A stretch of 64,000 nucleotides of DNA from Loripinus fragilis (lineage: Eukaryota > Mollusca > Bivalvia > Lucinida > Lucinidae). The notes beneath the pieces are model-generated. The model was not told where the DNA came from. It worked only from the letters and a program-made list of their open reading frames with translations, and did not search any database. Position numbers and translations under genes: made by a program. Below, piece by piece: positions 348 to 30,895 of the stretch (positions are counted from its first letter, which is position 1; each line of letters begins with the position of its first letter). The stretch covers positions 1 through 64,000 of the forward strand of contig CAXHUL010000503.1 of assembly GCA_964019695.1 (NCBI GenBank), read 5' to 3'.

Positions 348-351
348 TTAG
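348..351. repeat. Left target-site duplication (TTAG)
   Basis: TTAG directly precedes the TG that opens the 5' LTR, and the same TTAG directly follows the CA that closes the 3' LTR at 29837-29840. Ty3/gypsy elements make duplications of 4 to 6 bp, so this supports a single insertion event for the whole 352-29836 unit. Confidence 0.85.
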
Positions 352-471
352 TGTAACATGTATGGTGTTTATCTGTTTCATATTTTGTTAACTTAGTTTC
401 TGATTGACCCAGATATTGGAGAAATTGATGGTAAATAAGTTATTGTAAACAAGGTATTTATTTGGTTATAA

Positions 472-694
472 GAATTTTCTAGAATGATGACTAATCATCT
501 ACAACCTAAAAATGCATTGTCATAGAAGGTTCTGGAACCTTGGAGAAAAGCCCAGAATTCGCTAGGTTTTTCTTTTCCATGCCAATAGAAGTTTCTGGAA
601 TTAACTGGAATCATTGAGTAATCTCTGGAACTTTCCGGAATAAATAAATATAGCATATGATATCATAATTCTTCCTGATTATTCCGGAACTTTC
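472..694 (+). promoter_or_regulatory. Cluster of five perfect heat-shock-element motifs in U3
   Basis: The binding consensus of heat-shock factor is alternating GAA and TTC units spaced by two bases, with three units sufficient. Perfect three-unit runs occur at 472-484 (GAA-TTC-GAA), 525-537 (GAA-TTC-GAA, continued by TTG and GAA to 547), 588-600 (GAA-TTC-GAA, with a further in-phase GAA at 608-610), 628-640 (GAA-TTC-GAA) and 682-694 (TTC-GAA-TTC). The last ends 8 bp before the TATA box. All five are unchanged in the 3' LTR. Heat-shock induction is inference; the motifs are seen directly. Confidence 0.72.
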
Positions 695-702
695 TTAAAG
701 GG

Positions 703-712
703 TATATATAAG
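703..712 (+). promoter_or_regulatory. TATA box of the 5' LTR
   Basis: TATATATAAG immediately downstream of the last heat-shock-element motif, at a position expected for the U3/R promoter of an LTR. The same string is at 29413-29422 in the 3' LTR. Confidence 0.7.
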
Positions 713-1027
713 AGTAAATTTTTCATAAGGGCATCTTTGAAATAATTTCACCTTTTAAAAGTCTAAACCTTTTGTGCTGGAATTCTATATTGGAATACTT
801 AGTGCTTAACTTATTCATTCTGGATTACTTTGGATTATTCAGTTTTGGATTCAGACTTCATGTTCATTTGGATTTATCTTCAAAATCTGGGATCAGAAAC
901 TGCTGAAAGACTTGTGTTGATAAATATTCTGAGGGACAGTTCGGACATACAAGGTATTGTAAATTAGACTTTCTTTGATTGTATAACTATTTTCCATTGC
1001 TTATTGTAAATGTTAATTTTTGTTTTT

Positions 1028-1033
1028 AATAAA
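1028..1033 (+). promoter_or_regulatory. Polyadenylation signal of the LTR
   Basis: AATAAA about 100 bp before the LTR end, conserved at 29737-29742 in the 3' LTR, where it would end the element's transcript. Confidence 0.6.
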
Positions 1034-1132
1034 TTTTGTTAAATTTTAAAAGTGCTTTTTGTTGACTTTCCAAATAGAAAAATTTTGGTTTCCTGAATTC
1101 TTTTCTAGTTACGCCTGGCACGTAACAGAAAT

Positions 1133-1153
1133 TGGGGGCTCAGAGTCCGGGAT
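1133..1153 (+). other. Primer-binding site, tRNA-Pro-like
   Basis: Five bases after the 5' LTR the sequence reads TGGGGGCTC, then AGA, then GTCCGGGAT. The two blocks together match the classical tRNA-Pro primer-binding site, interrupted by three extra bases. Position and the leading TGG (complement of the tRNA CCA end) support a primer-binding site; the tRNA assignment rests on recall of that standard sequence. Confidence 0.65.
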
Positions 1154-3182: not shown

Positions 3183-3851
3183 ACACTCACCTTTCACTAG
3201 AACAAAGCTCAGATTATGACAAAGTAAAAGAACTTATTCTTAAGGCTTATGAGTTGGTCCCTGAAGTTTACAGGCAGAAATTTAGAGATTGTAGGAAAGA
3301 ATCTAACCAGACTCATGTGGAATTTGCTAGAACAAAAGAATAATTATTTGATAGGTGGTGCTCTTCAAAGAAAGTAGGTCCTGATCATGAAAAACTAAGA
3401 CAGCTCATGCTTGTTGAAGAATTCAAATGGTGTATAAATTCTGACGTCAGGGCTTTCTTAAATGAAAAAGAAGTTGAAAATTTGGATGTAGCAGCTAGAC
3501 TAGCTGATGATTATTCTTTAACTCATAAGGTTTCTTTGGTTAACAAGCCATTTCCTAGGAAACCATTTAACCCTCAATTGAAGTTTACACCTCAATCAAG
3601 ACCATTTTCCCCTCAGTCAAAACCATATTCCCCTCAGTCAGGTCCAAAATCCAACCCCAGTAATCCATCTGATAATTCCAGTCATTCATTTACTCCAAAA
3701 CCTAGATTTTCTGGTGAAAACAAATAAAAGGTCAAAGTCCATTATCCCCCCAGCCAATTTGCAATTATTGTAAACAATCAGGCCATATCATTTCTGAATG
3801 TATAGCTTTGAAAAGAAAGAGAGAACAAGAAATGTCACAGTCACGTGACGA
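3183..3851 (+). pseudogene. gag: gag, C-terminal part with zinc knuckle (broken)
   Basis: Continues the capsid segment after the inserted transposon: LSLEQSSDYDKVKELIL, then a VYRQKFRD motif, typical of this gag family. A stop at 3341-3343 and a frame change separate it from the next block (3407-3727), which ends in a proline/serine/lysine-rich linker with repeated PQSKP-like units. A single CCHC knuckle, CNYCKQSGHIISEC, is at 3760-3801 in a different frame from the linker, so an indel lies near 3725-3735. The sequence is then interrupted by the tandem-core element at 3852. Role: packaging of element RNA in cytoplasmic particles. Confidence 0.8.
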
Positions 3852-5756
3852 ATGCCCCCAAAGGAATTGGTTAAGCATAAGACACATTTGAGGAAAGTTA
3901 GCTGTAATATAGGAGATATGCTCCAGACACGATAAATCTAGAAACGAGGCCAGAAGTCAATGTCAAGGTCAAAGTGACCCAAAATGGTACGCACCACTCC
4001 ACCATCCCAAGAGGAATCAACACACCAAATTTGGGATTCCTACATCAAATAATATAGGAGATATGCTCCAGACACGATTATTCTAGAAACTAGGTCATAG
4101 GTCAAGATCAGAGTGACCTAAAAATGGTACGCGACACATCAGCATCTAAAGATTTATCCATACAGCAAAATTGGGATTCCCATCTCAAATAATATAAGAG
4201 ATATGTTCTGGACACGATAATTCTACAAACTAGGTCAGAGGTCAAGGTCATAGTCACCCAAAAATGGTACGTGACACTCCACCATCCAAAGTTGCATCCA
4301 CCCACCAAATTTGGGATTCATACCTTTAATAATATAAGAGATATGCTCTGGACATGATTTTTCTAAAAACTAGGCCAGAGGTCAAGGTCACAGTGACCTG
4401 TAAATGGTACAAGACACTCAACCATCCCAAGATGCATTCACACACCAAATTTGGGATTCCTATCTCAAATAATAAAAGAGATATGCTCCTGACACAATTA
4501 TTATTAAAACTAGGTCAGAGGTCAAGGTCACAGTGACCCGTAAATGGTACAAGACACTCAACCATCCAAAGATGCATTCACACACCAAATTTGGGATTCC
4601 CTTCTCAAATAATATAAGAGATATGCTCCTGACACAATTATTATTAAAACTAGGTCAGAGGTCAAGGTCACAGTGGCCAGAAAATAATATGTGAGACTCC
4701 ACCATCCCAAGATGCATATGCACACCAAATTTGGAATTCCTACCTCAAAGAATATAAGAGATATGCTCCTAACACAAAAATTCATAAAACTAGGTCAGAG
4801 GTCAAGGTCACAGTGACCCGAAATGGTATGTGTGACACTCTGTCATCTCAAGATGCATTTAGACACCAAATTTGGAATTCCTATCTAAAAGAATATAGGA
4901 GATATGCACCAGACACAATGCAGTTTCTAGAAATTAGGTCAGAGGTCAAGTTCAAGGTCACAGTGACCCAATTATGGTACGTGACACTTCCCCATCCCAA
5001 GATGCATTCACACACCAAATTTGAGATTCCTACCTCAAATAATATAAGAGATATGCTCCCGACACAATAATTCTAAAAACTAGGTCATAGGTCAAGTTAA
5101 AGGTCACAGCGACCCAATTATGGTACGCGACACTTTGTCATCTCAAGATGCATCATCACACCAAATTTGAGATTCCTAGCTCAAATATTATTAAAGATTT
5201 GCTCCGGACACGATAATTCTAATAACTAGGTCAGAGTTCAAGGTCAAGGTCACAGTGACCCAAAAATGGTATGTGACACCTCGCCATCCCAAGATGCATT
5301 TACACACCAAATTTGGAATTCCTATCTCATAGAATATAGGAGATATGCACCAGACTCAATGCAGTTTCTAGAAACTAGGTCAGAGGTCAAGTTCAAGGTC
5401 ACAGTGACCCAATTATGGTATGCGACACTTCGTCATCCCAAGACGCATCCACACACCAAATTTGAAATTCCTACCTCAAATAATATAAAAGATATGCTCC
5501 GGACACGATTATTCTAAAATCTAGGTCAGAGGTCAAGGTCAAGGTCACAGTGACCTGAATATGGTACGCGACACTCCGTCATCCCAAGATGCATCCACAC
5601 ACCAAATTTGGAATTCCTACCTCAAAGAATATAAGAGATATGCACCGGACACGAAGTGGGACGGACGGACTGACGGACGGACTGACGGACGGACTGACTG
5701 ACGGACGGACGGACAGTGAGATTACTATATGCCTCCCAAAGTTCCTTTGGGGGCAT
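3852..5756. mobile_element. Tandem-core element with terminal hairpin (pearl/HINE-like) inserted in gag
   Basis: Ends are short inverted repeats, ATGCCCCCAAAGGAA and TTCCTTTGGGGGCAT. The core is about 12 imperfect copies of a unit of about 145-155 bp, each with AAGGTCAAGGTCACAGTGACC-like text and ACACCAAATTTGGGATTCC. A (GACGGACG) run at 5658-5714 precedes a 3' hairpin at about 5728-5756 (GCCTCCCAAAG ... CTTTGGGGGC). This layout matches bivalve pearl elements and BIV160-type satellites, and Helentron-associated elements; the family name is inference. The short frames inside are products of the repeat. Confidence 0.75.
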
Positions 5757-5858: not shown

Positions 5859-6610
5859 GAGTCTAAATACCACAGACCACCACAGATCACCACAGACCAC
5901 CACAGACCACACCACAGACCACACCACAGACCACAATACAAATTATTTAAAATAAAGATAATAAATTTTAAACTAGTAAAATGTAAAAATTATTAAATTT
6001 AAGAGTTTTAGACCAAGATTGCCAAACATATAACACCTCAGACCATAAGTTCTATAATATAGATTGTTTGCACTCCTATTTAATATCTAATATATATTTT
6101 TATCCGACTTTTTTCATTTATTATTGTTATTATTTTCTATTATTGCTGAATATTTATCATTTTCTATTTATATTGCTGAATATATAACAATAACAAAATA
6201 TAAATGTCAGCATAAAAATGTGAAAAATAAATGTCAGATACCTGATCTCTCATATTATGGTAGTACACAGCCCTCACCTCAGATCAAAACATAACTTTCC
6301 ACAGACCAACATAGAACATAAAAAATATTAACTATTAAAATTAAATAAAATTTAAAAAATCGAATATACAGTGAAAATAAATACCATATTTTTTTTATAT
6401 TTTTGAGTTATATTGAGACCTTTATTGCCAAATTTAGAAGGTGAAAATGATGAAACAAATTGTATTTTTATTTCCTAACAAATGATTATTGACATTGTTA
6501 GAATATAAATGTAAAAGTAATTAACAAAACAAAAACATTGAAGAATCTGCATCCAACAATATAACAATTCAAATCATCACAAACTGCCGCAGACATAAAA
6601 TGCAATTAAT
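5859..6610 (+). repeat. Left long inverted repeat arm
   Basis: Begins with a run of CACAGACCAC repeats, then AT-rich sequence; pairs with 24731-25481. Landmarks shared by both arms include the CACAGACC repeats, TTTGGCAATCTTGG (as reverse complement), and AACTGCNGCAGACATAAAATGCAAT near the inner end. Confidence 0.85.
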
Positions 6611-8230
6611 TAGATTCAGAATAGGTTTGATAGAAGTAAAAAAGTTACAATGTGTGAATTTCACAATTCAAGTGAGAGATTTCCATTTAAGAAGATTTGA
6701 GATTATATAAAAAATTATAGGTACAATTTTATCAAATATATAAGTTGTTTGAAAGTAAAAAATTGAAAGATTATCAAGCTTTAGATTATGATCAATATTT
6801 ACCCATTGTAATGTAATGATGCAATATGATCAAATTTTCAATGGAAGGTAATCACCTTCTTTATTAAAAAAAATGCCCCCCCCCCCCCCCCACCACTCAA
6901 CTTTTATTATTGGAAAAAGATGAAAAATACTGGGCCATGTTTAAAGGACATTGAAATTCTAGTGCATACATTTGCCCTTTTTTGGTCTTAACCCTTGTCC
7001 TGTTGAACACAGAATTATCATTTATTGTAAATGCTTTAGATTCAGATCAGCTGATCCACACTGTTTTCTCCTCTGATTGAAAGTACTTGCTTACAGTTTT
7101 GTTGCAGTTTTACAAGATAAAATTTGCAGGAGTAAAGTATGAAGAAATAATTAGCATGGCAAGGGTTAAAAACTTAGAATGTAATTTGAGTTTTTCAGAA
7201 TTTCATTACCAAAATTATTTTATGAAAAAATAATTATATAAGTGAAGCATTGCACAATTCTTTGAAGTTGGTAAATCATATGTTTATACAAAAAATATGT
7301 CTACTCAAACAGAGGTGAGATATAAAAAAAAATAAAAAGAGAACATGCATTTTCATATGCGTGACATATATAATTATACAAATATGGAATATTGATTGAA
7401 TGCTTCAAATATATGTGCTGTGATGAGGGTTCCTATACACCTGTATCATCAGCGTTGAAAGCCTATGTACATTTTATTTTTGTAAGGTAACATTTTTTTT
7501 AGTGCCGTGTACAAAGGTATTAGGACACCCATGGATAAATGCCCAGTTGTAGACAACTTTTCATACCATGTACATAGCCTTATAACCCCCTCCCCCTACC
7601 CCAACCCCACACACTTAGGTTAGAAAATTGGCTCTGTGCCATGATAATCTGCTATACATCCAGATATGCTGCCATCAGTTGCATATGTAACATGATAATT
7701 ATCTCTGGGAAGTATCACAGATTTCATGACAAAAATATAATACTTTTTCTAAATATAAATACTTTGTCAACTCAATAACTGCACACTGTGACAAAAAGAA
7801 GTTCCTTTCTTATCTGTGTAAGAAAATAAAAAAACATATTAGTTGCTATAGTCTTTCTCAAACAAATAGAAATGAAATGACATAAGCTTTCCACTGAAAT
7901 TGCATTGCACTACCAAATTAGCTTAAAACGATTTGATCTGTCAAAACTAAAATAAAATATATTTTTATGTTGTAATAATTTAATTGCTCTTATGGTTTTA
8001 GTAACAATTATAAAAATATTATTTAATTTTTCCTGTTTTTTTTTCTGGCCCTTTTCATCCTCATAAATACTTGTAGGTACTAATTATGGGCTGTTAATTA
8101 TATTTTCATAAATTTAATTGTAAGCATGGTAACATCAGTGAGGTGCTAATTATATAAAGATCCTTGAGATAAATGTCCAAATGGCCGATAACTGATAAGC
8201 ACAGCATGCCAATTAGCAGATTATCTAGCC
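6611..8230. other. AT-rich stretch without recognised features
   Basis: No credible reading frame. A 16-base C run is at 6876-6891. The text is AT-rich with A and T tracts. Confidence 0.5.
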
Positions 8231-22955: not shown

Positions 22956-24730
22956 TTTGATATGACTTTAAAGAAATATCTTTCTTTGGAATGACAATAA
23001 AAGTTATGAAAAGGGCAAATCATGCTGAATTTTTTTTTTATCAAAATTCAAGTGATTTTCTACCACAAGTACCTGTACATATTTGTTAAAGTTTCACAAG
23101 TTACCATTTTCTACAGTAGTTTAGATACTTTTATTAACACTAATACTCCTACGCCAAAAGGTGGTGCGCCTACACAGGCGGAATATACATCCAAGAAAGA
23201 AAGGTTTAACAATTCAAGTGATTAGGAAATGTAATATTTATTCTGGAGGTTGAACTTATACTCAGACAATTACTCTGTGCAAAATATTCACAACCTATTT
23301 CCTGGCAAAAGAAGAGCAACTGTTGGGCCGGTTCGACCCATATATATATTAAATGGATCTAAAATTCTGAAAGCATTCATTATATTCGAGGCAGTCTTTC
23401 TAATTTCAAAGTGCTGCGGGTCACTTTTTCCAAATTATATACCTAATTATATGCCCCTTATTATGTACCTCTAGGTCTATACCTGTATGAATTAATGCAT
23501 ATTTTAAGACATTCATAACCTTAGACATTCTTGAAATTAAAAGAATGGTTCCAAGATACGAAGGCCATTCATAAGTAACCGGTCTACCCTACTTCTGATC
23601 CAGATAGGTCGCTTATTCTTTTATAAAATTAATCTCTAGCAAGATACTCTTTGACCTTATGTTTGAAAAAAAATATTATCTAATAATTTAACAAATATAC
23701 AGCCACCATTGAAAGTGTGCTAAAATAACTTGGAAATATGCAGTACTACTATGTTCAAGAGTCATTTTCAAAAGGCAAATTGCAAATTTTATACTTGTAA
23801 CTAAGCTATAATTGAAGCCAATAGAATTTTTTTTCATGTTTTTAAATGAGAATAAGTTTCAGTGCTTTTGAAAAAAATCAGTCTTCAAATTTAATTGTTA
23901 CATATTCCCTTAGAAGAAATGGAAATTTCGTTTGTGAAAATTTGAGAATTCAAACATTTTGCCCCTTTCTATTTTGACTAAAATGTATTAATAATTATAT
24001 TCGGATATTAATTGATATATTACATAAATAGTTGTTAAAAGTTTTACTTTCTGAGAGTTCCAACATGTCTGAAAAGAGTTATGGTCCAGACTCCTTAACC
24101 AAGGGTCATTTAAGTTAGTATTGTGATTTATCAAATTATGCAATATTGTTGTTTTCATGCCACCATGTAGGCGACAAATTTTCCGTTCCATTAGGCGACA
24201 AATTTTCCGTTCCATTGATATATTACACATACTCACACCATTTTTCATACTAAAGATAATTACCAAATAGTAAAATTTACGTAACAACCAAATTCGACGA
24301 AAACAAATCATTTGACTCACTGGCCGACCTCGAAGACGCAATAAATTACCAACTAATGAACCAATAATGTTTTAATTTTGGACATATGTCTTAAAATGGT
24401 GACGAAACACACTGTGTAAATCTTGACTGTATTGGTCATTTAGAAATAGGTCAGGCTGGTTACTTATTGAATCACCCTCGCAAGCATGAGAATATAAATC
24501 AAATTGAATTACAAATCTTCAAAAAAGATTAAGCATTATGATGAAATTAATTCTATTACCAAAATTTCAATGTCAGTGGGCCATTTAAAATGGCATTTAG
24601 CGGCTTTAAACAGGACGGGAAGGGTGCAAGGGGAGGGAGAAGGAAATATGAATGTGATGAAAGGAAATACAAACCAATGAACATAACATCAGGAAGACGA
24701 ATACTCTATATACCCCTTTCCGAAATTAAA
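22956..24730. other. AT-rich stretch without recognised gene
   Basis: A tandem pair of about 25 bp (GGCGACAAATTTTCCGTTCCATT) sits at about 24168-24217. Otherwise I see nothing supportable; short frames lack any domain. Confidence 0.45.
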
Positions 24731-25481
24731 ATGAATTGCATTTTATGTCTGCAGCAGTTTGTGATGATTTGAATTGTTCTATAGTTGGATGCGGATTCTT
24801 CAATGTTTTTGTTTTGTTAATTACTTTTACATTTCATATTCTAACAATGTCAATTTCACATATTTCCAAATCATTTGTTAGGAAATAAAAATACAATTTG
24901 TTTTATCATTTATGCCTTCTAAATTTGGCGATAAAGGTTTCAATATAACTCAAAAATAAAATAAAAATTATAGAAAAAAGTTGTAATTATTTTAATGTAT
25001 ATTCTATATTTTAAATTTTATTTAATTTTAATAGTTAATATTTTTTATGTTCTATGTTGGTCTGTGGAAAGTTATGTTTTGATCTGAGGTGAGGGCTGTG
25101 TAATACCATAATATGAGAGATTAGGTATCTGACATTTATTTTTTACAATTTTATACCGAAATTTGTATTTTTGTTATTGTTGAATATTCAGCAATATAAA
25201 TAGAAAATTATAAATATTCAGCAATAATAGAAGATAATAATAATAAATGAAAAAAGTCTGATTTAAAAATTTGAGATATTAAATAGAAGTGCAAACATTC
25301 TACATCAAAGAACTAATGGTCTGTGGTGTTATAATGTTTGGCAATCTTGGTTTAAAACTCTTAAATTTAATAATTTTTCACATTTTACTACTTTAAAATT
25401 TATCATTCTTATTGTAAATATTTTGTATTGTGGTCTGTGGTGGTCTGTGGTGATCTGTGATGCTCTGTGGTATTTAGACTC
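24731..25481 (-). repeat. Right long inverted repeat arm
   Basis: Reverse complement of 5859-6610; ends GGTCTGTGGTATTTAGACTC at 25462-25481, directly against protease coding sequence of the retrotransposon. Confidence 0.85.
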
Positions 25482-26133
25482 GCCCTCTGAGACTGATGCT
25501 GTTATGGAGATTTATGAACCATTCTTATCAGATGGTTCCGTGTCACTTAATAGTGACTTTGCCCAATCTACCCCTATTAAAATCTTACGAGATACTGGTG
25601 CTTCTCAATCCCTTATCTTGGCAGATACACTGCCTTTTTCTGAGAAGACTTCTTCTGGGACAAGTGTCCTTATCCAGGGTGTGGAGTGTGGATTTATTAA
25701 TGTACCGCTCCATAACATTTGTTTGTCCTCAGACTTAGTTACTGGTCTTGTGCCTGTAGGTATTAGACCTTCTTTACCTTTTAAAGGTGTTCACTTGCTT
25801 TTAGGCAATGATTTGGCTGGAGATAAGGTTGTAGTAGACCCACTTTTGACCAACACACCTTGTGTTGATCAACCGCCTGATCCTATTGAGCAGGAAATTC
25901 CTGACCTTTACCCTTCTTGTGCTGTCACTAGGGCAATGGTAAAGAAAGCCAAACAGAATAATGGGATGCAGGATATTAATTTAGCTGACACTTTGATAGG
26001 TCAGTCCTTTAATGATGAGATTTCAAATTCTCTTTCTCCCAGCCAGTCTGACATTCAGACTGACTTTGACATTTCAAGGTCAAACACTGACCTTTCACCT
26101 TCAATTTCAAATGTCAAGATCACAGCTTTGTAA
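25482..26133 (+). pseudogene. pol: Retrotransposon aspartic protease domain
   Basis: After an open run from the inverted repeat, element sequence begins with SPSETDAVMEIYEPF. The active-site motif LRDTGASQSLI (DTGA, at about 25588-25620) marks a retropepsin, which works as a dimer to cut Gag-Pol. A hydrophobic stretch ending in HLLLGNDLAGDKV fits the second conserved region of the fold. The frame stops at 26131-26133; integrase continues in the +1 frame with overlap from 26012, so either a programmed shift or an indel lies near 26110-26130. The Met at the start of the open frame lies in the inserted repeat and is not the true start. Confidence 0.85.
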
Positions 26134-26944
26134 GGAACAACATAGTGATCCTGAGATATCACCTTTCTTTGATAGAGCTTTAGATGAAAATGAAATGTCA
26201 CAGGTCCCTGTTTGCTATTATGTAAAAAATGACATTTTGATGAGAAAATGGCGTCCTCCTGATGTCTCAGCAGATGATGAGTGGACTGTTAACCACCAGA
26301 TTGTTGTCCCAAGAGCTTATCGTCCTGAAATTTTGAATTTGGCTCATGAAACTCCCATGTCAGGCCATTTAGGTGTAAATAAGACCTATCACAAGATTCT
26401 TAATCATTTCTTTTGGCCAGGATTAAAATCTGATGTTTCTCAGCACTGCAAATCCTGTCACACTTGTCAAATAGTAGGAAAACCCAATCAGACCATTCCA
26501 AAAGCTTCTTTACGGCCCATTCCTGCATTTGATGAACCTTTTAGCAGATTCATTATTGACTGTGTAGGTCCCCTACCCAAAACAAAGTCAGGTTGTCAAT
26601 ATCTTTTGACTATTATGTGTGCTTCAACACGCTTCCCTGAAGCCATTCCACTCAGAAATATCAAGACTAAGACAATTGTTACGGCACTTGTGAAATTTTT
26701 CACTTTTGTTGGCCTTCCAAGGTCTGTACAATCTGATCAAGGTTCAAATTTTATTTCAGGAATTTTTCAACAAGTCATGCATGAACTTGGTATCAAACAA
26801 TACAAGTCATCGGCTTATCATCCTGAAAGCCAGGGTGCCTTAGAAAGATTTCATCAAACTTTGAAAAACATGATCAGATCTTACTGCTTTGACACGGAAA
26901 AGGATTGGGATGAGGGCATACATTTGCTTTTATTTGCTGTTTGA
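26012..26944 (+). pseudogene. pol: Retrotransposon integrase, N-terminal and core domains (cut by TGA)
   Basis: Inserts element DNA into the genome. Zinc-binding domain: AHETPMSGHLG provides the two histidines and CKSCHTC the cysteines. Core: first Asp in FIIDCVGPLP, second Asp in SDQGSNF, Glu in SQGALERFHQTLK, so the DDE triad is complete. The frame ends at a TGA (26942-26944) in the middle of the domain (LLFAV-stop-ES), after which the same frame continues through SIGFSPFELVFGH; the stop fits a CGA to TGA change. This domain lies before reverse transcriptase, which defines the Gmr1-like order. Confidence 0.88.
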
Positions 26945-27001
26945 GAATCTGTACAAAAGTCTATTGGGTTCAGCCCATTTGAACTGGTATTTGGGCATAC
27001 T

Positions 27002-28913
27002 GTGCACGGACCTTTGAAACTTCTGAAAGAAAAATTTCTCTCAGATGATGACAGCTCTTTGAACTTACTTCAGTATGTGTCTGATTTCAAAAATAGACTA
27101 TCAAAAGCCTGTGAAGCTGCTCTGTCCAATCTCAAATCGGCTCAAAGCAAAATGAAATTGCTTTATGATGAAAATCCTCAGGGTAGAAATTTTGAACCTG
27201 GAGACAAGGTACTTGCTCTTTTGCCCATTCCTGCTAAACCATTGCAAGCTAGATATTATGGTCCTTATACTGTTGACAAAAAGTTAAGTGATGTTAATTA
27301 CACTGTTAACACTCCTGGGAGACGCAAACAAAAACAGTTATGTCATATCAACATGCTTAAAAAGTACATTGATAGGGATAGTTCTGATATTTCATCAGTA
27401 AATCTAGTAAATACTGTCCCTCTTGAACAAAATCAAATGGACTCTGAAGATATGAACTTTGTGAAATCTGATCCCGCGTCATCAAAACTCAAGAACTCTG
27501 ATATCTTAAAGGATCTTGACCAGAAATTGTCTCATCTTAGTTCAGGCAAGAAACTTGAACTGAAGCAATTAATTATTGAATATGAGCACTTATTTCCGGA
27601 TATTCCATCTAAAACTGACAAAATCTATCATGATGTTGAACTTATTGATGCTTCAAAACCTGTGAAACAACATTCATACAGAATGAACCCTGTAAAACAA
27701 CAAATTCTCAGAGAAGAAGTTCAATACTTGCTGGACAATGACTTTATAGAACCTAGTCAAAGTGAATGGAGTTCTCCTTGTATTCTTGTACCAAAACCTG
27801 ATGGGACATTTCGCATGTGTACGGACTATCGTAAAGTAAATTCTGTCACCAAAACAGACACATTTCCTATCCCACGAATCGATGACTGCATCGATAACAT
27901 TGGACAAGCCAAATATGCTATGAAATTCATCCTGCTTAAAGGATTTTGGCAAATACCTCTGACAAACAGAGCAAAGGAGATCTCAGCATTTGTTACTCCA
28001 GACGGATTGTATCAGTATAAAATTATGCCGTTTGGAATGAAGAACTCCCCAGCGACATGTCAATGCTTAGTTAACAACTTGATATTTAATCTGGCTGGCT
28101 GTAAAGCCTATATCTACGACGCTATCATCTTCAGTGAAGAATGGGAACGACACTTACAAACTATCAGAAATTTCTTCGACAGACTTAGTGAAGCTAAACT
28201 AACAGTTAACTTAACAAAGAGTGAATTTTGCCATGCAAATTTGACATTTTCAGGTCATCTGGTGGGACAAGGTCAGGTAAAACCTGTAAAGGCTAAAGTT
28301 GAGGCTCTTGCAGATTTTCCCGTACCTTCTGGCAAAAGACAACTGATGGACTTTCTTGGTATGGCTGGATATTACAGGAAATTCTATAATAACTTCTCTG
28401 TCATAGCAGAGCCTTTGACAAACTTACTTGGAAAAAGGGTCAAGTTTATTTGGACTGATAACTGTCAGAAGTCTTTTGAAAAGCTTAAAGCCATACTTAA
28501 AAGTGCTCCAGTTCTCTTAGCACCAAGATTTAACAAAGAATTTAAGTTGGCCGTAGATGCCAGTGATGTTGGTGCTGGCAGTGTATTGTTACAAGAAGAT
28601 GACAATGGTGTTGATCATCCTGTTTGTTACTATTCTAAAAAGTTTAACAAACATCAGAGAAATTACTCTACTGTAGAGAAAGAATGCTTATCTCTCATTC
28701 TTGCTCTTCAGCACTTCGAAGTTTACCTAGCCTCTTCAGTTGCACCTATTGTCATTTTCACTGATCACAATCCACTGACTTTCAGTCATAAAATGAAAAA
28801 CAAGAACCAGCGTTTACTCAGATGGAGTCTCATGTTGCAAGGGGCACAATCTAGATATCAGACATATTAAAGGAAAAGATAATATCATCCCAGATGCACT
28901 CTCTAGGGCTTAG
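27002..28913 (+). pseudogene. pol: Integrase C-terminus, reverse transcriptase and RNase H
   Basis: Same frame as integrase. Residues 1-125 hold the integrase C-terminal domain (GDKVLALLP, ARYYGPYTV). From about residue 195 follows reverse transcriptase: SSPCILVPKPDGTFRMCTDYR, FPIPRIDD, LLKGFWQIPL, MPFGMKNSPATCQ, AYIYDAIIFS. Two catalytic aspartates are missing: the motif A position is Ile (ATC, 27929-27931) and the first Asp of the YxDD box is Tyr (TAC, 28115-28117). RNase H keeps Asp (AVDAS), Glu (VEKE) and Asp (TDHN). The frame shifts near 28850; the conserved end of the domain (IKGKDNIIPDALSR) is read in another frame to the TAG at 28911-28913. Confidence 0.92.
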
Positions 28914-29049: not shown

Positions 29050-29061
29050 GAGGAGGGGAAG
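29050..29061 (+). other. Polypurine tract
   Basis: GAGGAGGGGAAG directly before the 3' LTR; primes plus-strand synthesis in LTR elements. Confidence 0.85.
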
Positions 29062-29836
29062 TGTAACATGTATGGTGTTTATCTGTTTCATATTTTGTTT
29101 ACTTAGTTTCTGATTGACCCAGATATTGGAGAAATTGATGGTAAATAAGTTATTGTAAACAAGGTATTTATTTGGTTATAAGAATTTTCTAGAATGATGA
29201 CTTATCATCTAGAAACTAAAAATGCATTGTCATAGAAGGTTCTGGAACCTTGGAGAAAAGCCCAGAATTCACTAGATTTTTCTTTTCCATGCCAATAGAA
29301 GTTTCTGGAATTAACTGGAATCATTGAGTAATCTCTGGAACTTTCCGGAATAAATAAATATAGCATATGATATCATAATTCTTCCTGATTATTCCGGAAC
29401 TTTCTGAAAGGGTATATATAAGAGTAAACTTTTCATAAGGGCATCTTTGAAATAATTTCACCTTTTAAAAGTCTAAACCTTTTGTGCTGGAATTCTATAT
29501 TGGAATACTTAGTGCTTAACTTATTCATTCTGGATTACTTTGGAGTATTCAGTTTTGAATTCAGACTTCATGTTCATTTGGATTTATCTTCAAAATCTGG
29601 GATCAGAAACTGCTGAAAGACTTGTGTTGATAAATATTCTGAGGGACAGTCGGACATACAAGGTATTGTAAATTAGACTTTCTTTGATTGTATAACTATT
29701 TTCCATTGCTTATTGTAAATGTTAATTTTTGTTTTTAATAAATTTTGTTAAATTTTAAAAGTGCTTTTTGCTGACTTTCCAAATAGCAAAATTTTGGTTT
29801 CCTGAATTCTTTTCTAGTTACGCCTGGCACGTAACA
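29062..29836 (+). repeat. 3' LTR
   Basis: 775 bp, TG...CA ends, about 98% identical to 352-1127. Carries the same TATA box and polyadenylation signal. Confidence 0.95.
29182..29404 (+). promoter_or_regulatory. Heat-shock-element motif cluster in the 3' LTR
   Basis: Perfect three-unit motifs at 29182-29194, 29235-29247, 29298-29310, 29338-29350 and 29392-29404, each identical to its 5' counterpart. Placed here, the LTR promoter would read outward to the right, toward and antisense to the TPR-gene exons. Confidence 0.7.
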
Positions 29837-29840
29837 TTAG
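29837..29840. repeat. Right target-site duplication (TTAG)
   Basis: Matches 348-351. Confidence 0.85.
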
Positions 29841-30079
29841 AAGATACACCCGTTTTAGCTCTTAAAATCAGTAAAGGGGGGATGGGATGTATTTAGGGCG
29901 GCCGTGTTATGAATATGCTTTAGATTGCCATCTTGTCTACTTAGCAATACCAGGGACATGTCTGTTATGCATGAAAAAGCAAAATGGGATTGTATTATTT
30001 ATATGCAACCGCAAAAATTGAAATTCAAATTTGTTCAAATAAACATGAAACAGGTCTTGTATAATCTGGGCCAGTCTAG

Positions 30080-30895
30080 TGTTAGGCAAGCACCTAACCT
30101 TTGTTAGGCTAGCACCAATAATCATATTATAACCTGTGTTAAACAAACACCAATATACATTTCCTAACTTGTGTTAGGCAAGCACCAATAAATGTTTCCT
30201 AACTTGTGTTAAACAAACACCAATAAACATTTCCTAACTTGTGTTAGGCAAGCATCAATAAAGTTTCCTAACCTGTGTTAGGGATGCACCAATAAACATA
30301 TCCTAACCTGAGTTAGGCAAGCACCAATAAACATATCCTATCCTGTGTTAGGCAAGCACCAATAAAGATATCCTATCTCGTGTTAGGCAAGCACCAATAA
30401 AGTTTCTTAACCTATTAGGCATGCACCAATTAACATGTCCTAACCTGTGTTAGGCAAGCACCAAAAAACATAGCCTAGCCTATGCTAGGCAAGCACCAAT
30501 AAACATATCCTATCCTGTGTTAGGCAAGCACCAATTAAAATCCTAGCCTGTGTTAGGCAAGCACCAATAAAAATCCTAGCCTGTGTTAGGCAAGGACCAA
30601 TAAAAAATCCTAACCTGTGTTAGGCAAGCACCAATAAACATATCCTATCCTGTGTTAGGCAAGCACCAATTAAATCCTAGCCTGTGTTAGGCAAGCACCA
30701 ATTTAAATCCTAGCCTGTGTTAGGCAAGGACCAATAAACATATCCTAACCTGTGTTAAGCAAGCACCAATAAGTATATCTTATTAACCTGTGTAAGGCAA
30801 GTACCTTTGAGCATATTTAAACATGTGTTAGGCAACACTGATTCAGAATTTCAAACTTGTGTTAGGCAAGCACCTAACCTGTATTAGGCAAGCTG
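30080..30895. repeat. Minisatellite of about 35 bp, more than 20 copies
   Basis: Unit resembles GTGTTAGGCAAGCACCAATAAACATATCCTAACCT, with units of about 30 to 38 bp and many single-base changes. It lies in an intron of the TPR gene, ending about 40 bp from the exon donor site at 30934. Confidence 0.9.

Follow-up and report, generated by a model that had tools for sequence, protein, structure and literature searches.

Clustered heat-shock elements in the long terminal repeats of a high-copy Ty3/gypsy family in the bivalve Loripinus fragilis: a likely HSF-driven promoter

The window, i.e. the whole stretch of 64,000 nucleotides of Loripinus fragilis DNA analysed here, contains an LTR retrotransposon, the features of which are collected in Table 1. 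Between its LTRs follow one another gag fragments, a protease-like fragment, integrase, reverse transcriptase (RT) and RNase H, the zinc-binding domain of the integrase (~26306) lying upstream of RT (~27788) on the same strand. The best PDB match of the pol fragment is Ty3 Gag-Pol (E 2e-80), and, judged from its sequence, the element is a Ty3/gypsy retrotransposon with GMR1-like gene order. In the gag region, the N-terminal fragment has no Pfam match, and the SCAN-like match (PF02023) of the second gag fragment scores 21.5 bits, below the curated cut-off of 27. The DTG motif is taken to be protease-like, and the primer binding site resembles a tRNA-Pro site with 3 extra bases.

Table 1. Features of the retrotransposon in the window (HSE, heat-shock element; positions are those of the window)
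Feature	Position	Strand	Basis and remarks
Target-site duplication TTAG, left copy	348..351		Sequence; right copy 29837-29840
5' LTR, 776 bp, TGTAACA...CGTAACA	352..1127	+	98% identity to 29062-29836
HSE H1, three perfect units	472..484	+	Sequence; GAAnnTTCnnGAA at 472
HSE H2, perfect core 525-537 (GAAnnTTCnnGAA at 525)	524..548	+	Five units, one mismatch
HSE H3, three perfect units	588..600	+	GAAnnTTCnnGAA at 588
HSE H4, three perfect units	628..640	+	GAAnnTTCnnGAA at 628; core in 23/23 young LTRs
HSE H5, perfect core 682-694 (TTCnnGAAnnTTC at 682)	671..695	+	Five units, one mismatch
TATA box TATATATAA	703..711	+	Sequence
Polyadenylation signal AATAAA, probably close to R end	1028..1033	+	Sequence
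Primer binding site, TGGGGGCTC-AGA-GTCCGGGAT	1133..1153	+	Sequence
gag N-terminal fragment, 165 aa	1224..1721	+	Position only
gag fragment, weak SCAN-like match	3344..3727	+	PF02023, E 2e-4
Fragment with DTG motif	25267..26133	+	Open reading frame; no Pfam match
Integrase, zinc-binding and core domains	26000..26944	+	PF17921 1.9e-21, PF00665 4.6e-13
Integrase C-terminal domain, then RT and RNase H	26945..28870	+	PF22938, PF00078, PF17919, PF17917
Polypurine tract GAGGAGGGGAAG	29050..29061	+	Sequence
3' LTR, 775 bp	29062..29836	+	Alignment to 5' LTR

The window copy is broken, with interrupted frames and, inside it, a 140-bp tandem array and a 19.6-kb stretch. The array (3905-5654), with a GGAC run after it, is made of ~12 units of 140-149 bp with AGGTCAAGGTCA and has the look of a nested repeat of its own. 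The 19.6-kb insertion separates the gag fragments from the protease-like one; it is bounded by inverted repeats of ~0.74 kb (5889-6611 and 24730-25471, 88% identical) and is possibly a large DNA transposon. From inside it, 7 ORFs gave a single match in Pfam, weak and below the cut-off. The window copy can be seen as an older interrupted member of its family, and such a copy could at most be a source of LTR-driven RNA.

The initial annotation of this DNA pointed to five perfect three-unit HSEs at 472-694, in a number beyond chance and directly upstream of a TATA box. All this holds exactly: the five motifs (H1 to H5) are repeated in the 3' LTR (at 29182, 29235, 29298, 29338 and 29392), H5 is separated from the TATA box by 8 bases, and none of 20,000 shuffles of the LTR with dinucleotides kept reaches five three-unit HSEs (maximum 3). 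Outside both LTRs, the 62,448 bases of the window contain no three-unit HSE. In all five HSEs the centre is TTC-YR-GAA (pyrimidine–purine), a feature not demanded by the search pattern. Two other claims had to be amended. A single motif had been described as extending to five units with one mismatch, but two arrays (H2 and H5) do so. Likewise, the absence of LTR–LTR differences from the motif cores is correct as a count (13 places, one of them a gap, none in a core) but carries no weight, because, with 45 core positions in 776, chance alone gives this outcome with P = 0.43. CpG dinucleotides are few in U3, with 3 in 351 bp in the window and 1 in 327 bp in L079.

The genome searched comprises 1.99 Gb in 685 contigs. 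For the nearest relatives of the window LTR, the best 40 places out of 1,578 candidates were scored, and the 38 outside the window were compared. In 31 of these 38 none of the five HSE cores is altered, and core positions differ in 11 of 1,710 cells (0.6%) versus 278 of 11,628 (2.4%) in the remaining U3. This conservation was rejected as proof of function, since 34 of the 38 have the outer flank of the window on at least one side; the flank being common to the window, these relatives are not independent evidence and most likely descend from one insertion. The LTRs without the window flank belong to L044, L045/L046 (one element) and L047, with 5, 5, 5 and 4 three-unit HSEs, respectively.

The flanks belong to a dispersed host repeat that surrounds the element (337-351 and 29837-30092 in the window). 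With up to 2 mismatches allowed, its empty site with a single TTAG has 574 occurrences in the genome (mirrored control, 0), and the simplest reading is that of a single insertion into a dispersed repeat, the filled copy being later multiplied. Solo LTRs with both flanks account for 8 of the 38 copies compared. Small contigs and regions towards chromosome ends hold many of the multiplied places, among them the final 17 Mb of contig C16 and the end regions of C12 and C11; C342 is one of the other contigs concerned. HSE promoters would thereby be placed inside a multiplied repeat block, loosely comparable with satellite III, which is heat-induced.

Beyond the multiplied group, the element belongs to a dispersed family. 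In the protein searches, the best 69 of 5,963 candidates were scored (best 69 of 5,605 in a second search). An unbroken frame of 1,604-1,688 codons with a stop-free match is found in 39/69 scored copies and an internal stop in 6/69; once the window's own multiplied group is set aside, the pol identity of the scored copies to the window is 92-94%. The 3' LTR regions of 24 of the 69 copies were fetched, and a polypurine pattern lies directly 5' of the LTR in 23 of them; L094, with no polypurine tract match, was dropped. Among the 23 LTRs retained, hereafter the young LTRs, all but L074 have a recognised end, and the 3' flanks of these 22 are all different. LTR length in the family is 733-776 bp. 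The 5' and 3' LTRs of a copy differ by 0-4 substitutions in 12/12 pairs and by none in 4/12 (one pair also has a gap), and matching 4-bp duplications are present in 11/12 copies, the exception being L096. Copies with such near-identical LTR pairs are young insertions. The primer binding site has two forms (as compared in the window and L095-L106), the extra AGA being present in 6/12 young copies and absent from 6/12, which perhaps corresponds to a changed tRNA pairing. No relatives were found among viral contigs.

Perfect three-unit HSEs are present in 23/23 young LTRs, and 22 of them have two or more. The mean per young U3 is 2.5 for three-unit arrays and 5.6 for arrays of at least two units, and every one of the 23 contains an array of five units with no more than one mismatch, as compared with 0/5,000 shuffles of one member. 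The H5 core is found in 22/23 young LTRs; H3 is absent from the corresponding place in all 23. The spacing between TTC and GAA in the young U3s is strongly uneven, with 108 occurrences at 2 bases and 61 at 12, as opposed to 9-24 at 4, 6 and 10 and 0-1 at 0, 1, 3, 5, 7, 8, 9 and 11.

Copy number was approached with short pieces of the LTR. A 31-base piece of R, with no HSE inside, has 997 matches genome-wide at up to 3 mismatches, and a 31-base piece covering H5 and the TATA box has 775, with mirrored controls of 0 for both; the two sets are not paired one-to-one. A sample of 15 LTRs was taken on R alone, one per pair on contigs C6 and C9 with U3 disregarded, one C9 copy already examined being left out. 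All 15 contain a three-unit HSE, and 13 contain at least two. Five additional LTRs were chosen beside which no exact H5-TATA match was listed; four carry one or more three-unit HSEs, one of them 6. Together these samples represent 20 of the 997 matches and, being drawn from the 100 exact R matches listed, lean to young copies. The scan of other genomic copies, proposed as a check in the initial annotation, thus yields a three-unit HSE in 42/43 family LTRs scored, L129, in which the LTR start was not recognised, being without one. The related copies lacking the motifs, which had been named as a refutation, are limited to L129 among these 43. A distant relative is also devoid of them: in L001, from another family (pol 56% identical), the 5.5-kb contig with its probable 3' LTR contains no three-unit HSE, and the HSE array is therefore not common to all of the GMR1-like clade. 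The contig of L001 (NJBF01000101.1) is filed under a Heimdallarchaeota MAG; it encodes an animal-type GMR1-like retrotransposon and is probably eukaryotic contamination.

On a midpoint-rooted U3 tree (L113 and L129, with LTR starts not recognised, were left out), three-unit HSEs number 1-4 in the young group (1-3 in most members) and 4-6 in the other lineages, L120 and L128 among them. The six of L128 (G000:C3:21704280-21704731), a divergent lineage on this tree, are the most seen in any LTR. As to the genomic background, TTCnnGAAnnTTC has 52,486 matches genome-wide versus 18,835 for the mirrored control pattern, and L050-L069 contain 1 three-unit HSE in 73,353 bases.

Conservation of cores and spacers was compared in H4 and H5. 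Among the 23 young LTRs, 17 of the 18 core columns show no variation. When the window is set against the commonest letter of the young LTRs, none of the 18 core positions differs, as against 4 of the 8 spacer positions and 63 of the 309 other U3 positions (mean identity is 91.5% for the window versus the young LTRs and 95.7% among the latter). When random template pairs were drawn 20,000 times, 1.6% were of equally low diversity, 14% had equally few window differences and 0.9% had both, so that the test gives modest support. The H1/H2 columns are not conserved above the remaining U3 (0.14 versus 0.09). Taken together, the core/spacer comparison, the behaviour of H1-H3 and the counts on the tree therefore indicate that the HSE property is kept while single sites turn over, and selection on this property appears likely from these sequences.

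The promoters of host heat-shock genes offer a reference. The genome has 57 hsp70 matches, and in the four intron-containing genes examined from this larger set, perfect three- or four-unit HSEs are invariably found 5' of the first coding exon, with a TATA-like box 41-103 bp downstream of the HSE in three. The intronless hsp70 L048, the 626-aa protein of which shares 84-86% identity with hsp70 of Mercenaria, Mactra, Ruditapes and Mya, has a perfect motif of two units only. A perfect HSE of three or more units within ~100 bp upstream of a TATA box, typical of hsp70 promoters, is found in the LTR and not in L048. That the array was captured from one of the examined hsp70 loci was considered and rejected, the only match being one of 18 bp at U3 positions 20-37, outside the HSEs. 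HSF-domain matches occur at three places in the host genome, and the reverse strand of L070 reads as an HSF1-type exon. A further hsp70/DnaK gene, L049 (G000:C558, 168 kb), is bacterial-looking; its separate contig may come from a symbiont or be a contaminant of the assembly.

From the arrays, the LTR of this high-copy Ty3/gypsy element is likely to be an HSF-driven, heat-responsive promoter. Trimers of the host HSF are predicted to bind the HSE arrays beside the TATA box; under heat or proteotoxic stress, HSF would raise transcription from the LTR, probably beginning ~25-30 bp past the TATA box, and the RNA product would be reverse-transcribed and integrated by the element's own proteins, in cells including those of the germ line. 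Of the HSF-driven animal LTR element that had initially been proposed, the sequence half is borne out by arrays that are family-wide and hsp70-like, and the functional half stands as a prediction. A further step is put forward only tentatively, namely that the family is presently mobile, that heat waves cause bursts of its RNA and germ-line insertions, and that ~1,000 mostly HSE-bearing LTRs may wire nearby genes to the heat-shock response.

HSF could also act on the LTR in development, being active without heat in the germ cells or the early embryo and making the heat response a by-product. This alternative is rather unlikely. HSFs have germ-line roles in other animals, which favours it, and many family copies resemble recent germ-line insertions, from which germ-line activity of the promoter can be presumed. 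The likeness of the LTR arrays to those of the host hsp70 promoters would be a point against it, but does not separate the two settings. It is improbable that the arrays are relics of one ancestral HSE promoter, spread by copying and of no current use or under no current selection. Descent contributes, since young copies of recent shared ancestry would partly owe their arrays to it, and the lower HSE counts of the youngest lineages, together with the 34 close relatives of the window multiplied with the host repeat, fit such a history; the H4/H5 cores that do not differ between the window and the young lineages, while half of their spacer positions do, and the rich arrays of L120 and L128 outside the young group speak against it.

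Less probable still is that the motifs serve a factor with related sites (STAT or ETS) instead of HSF. TTC...GAA does resemble STAT sites, TTCCGGAA includes an ETS-like GGAA, and the young H4 retains GGAA and TTCC, but the usual STAT gap is 3 bases, a spacing seen once between TTC and GAA as opposed to 108 cases at 2 bases. In addition, the young H5 GTTCTAGAACTTTCT (21/23) is without GGAA or TTCC, and alternation in 5-base steps over up to five units is the grammar of HSF. Finally, chance motifs in AT-rich DNA, where GAA/TTC words and single motif matches are common, can be dismissed in view of the scarcer mirrored pattern, the 20,000 shuffles, the near absence of three-unit HSEs from the 62,448 and 73,353 bases scanned and, already by itself, the family-wide count.

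The preferred reading, an HSF-driven LTR, has precedents, mainly in plants. HSFA2 binding and heat induction are demonstrated for ONSEN/ATCOPIA78 (PMC3907296), and for Brassicaceae COPIA elements predicted three-unit HSEs go along with heat transcript rises of up to ~100-fold and four-unit HSEs with rises of up to ~1,000-fold (PMC5059998). These heat-responsive elements resemble the present one in their clustered nGAAn heat-shock elements within the LTR, and ONSEN also in the scarcity of CpG, of which its U3 has none. ONSEN is, however, a Ty1/copia element of a plant, whereas the element described here is a Ty3/gypsy of an animal; its LTRs have a greater number of arrays each, and its copies are far more numerous. 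In animals, Drosophila copia is reported to respond to heat and to have heat-shock consensus sequences in its promoter; PMC3907296, which cites this, describes it as transcribed without heat, responding more weakly and lacking at least three more nGAAn copies, and describes no array. The copia and gypsy LTRs of Drosophila have one predicted HSF site each in Table 5 of PMC10745035. HSF1 is reported to act on the LTR of HIV-1 (PMC4870680 and PMC9367301), a vertebrate retrovirus. Caenorhabditis Helitrons (PMC6927752) carry HSEs and likewise spread them in an animal genome, but are DNA transposons with a described effect on nearby host genes.

As regards the element itself, integrase before RT is the arrangement given for GMR1 in PMC6238403, and it is shared here on a Ty3-type pol; the SCAN-like gag match is weak and below the cut-off. 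Steamer, a bivalve gypsy of the C-clade with an LTR of ~177 bp and a tRNA-Leu primer (PMC8905726), is likewise a bivalve Ty3/gypsy LTR element and shares the LTR start TGTAACA; the longer LTR of the present family sets it apart from Steamer. In the open-access literature searched, no HSE array was found for any gypsy-type or mollusc element. Elements with strong HSF arrays in their LTRs are established in plants, and the animal case cited, Drosophila copia, is described as weaker; an animal, gypsy-type variant of this heat-triggered LTR principle would be new. Bivalves are a group exposed to marine heat waves, and whether heat stress mobilises animal retrotransposons becomes directly testable with a young family of this kind, in which frames are unbroken, LTR pairs nearly identical and promoters hsp70-like. 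The family would also provide neighbouring genes with a large supply of ready-made HSEs.

A minor observation concerns similar palindromes of the AAAAGAACCGTCTC...GAGACGGTTCTTTT type, which lie in the hsp70 locus L048 (~905-960), in the HSF locus L070 (~1390-1437) and, in L071, just past the LTR. Recurring at unrelated loci, the palindrome is probably a small dispersed inverted-repeat element.
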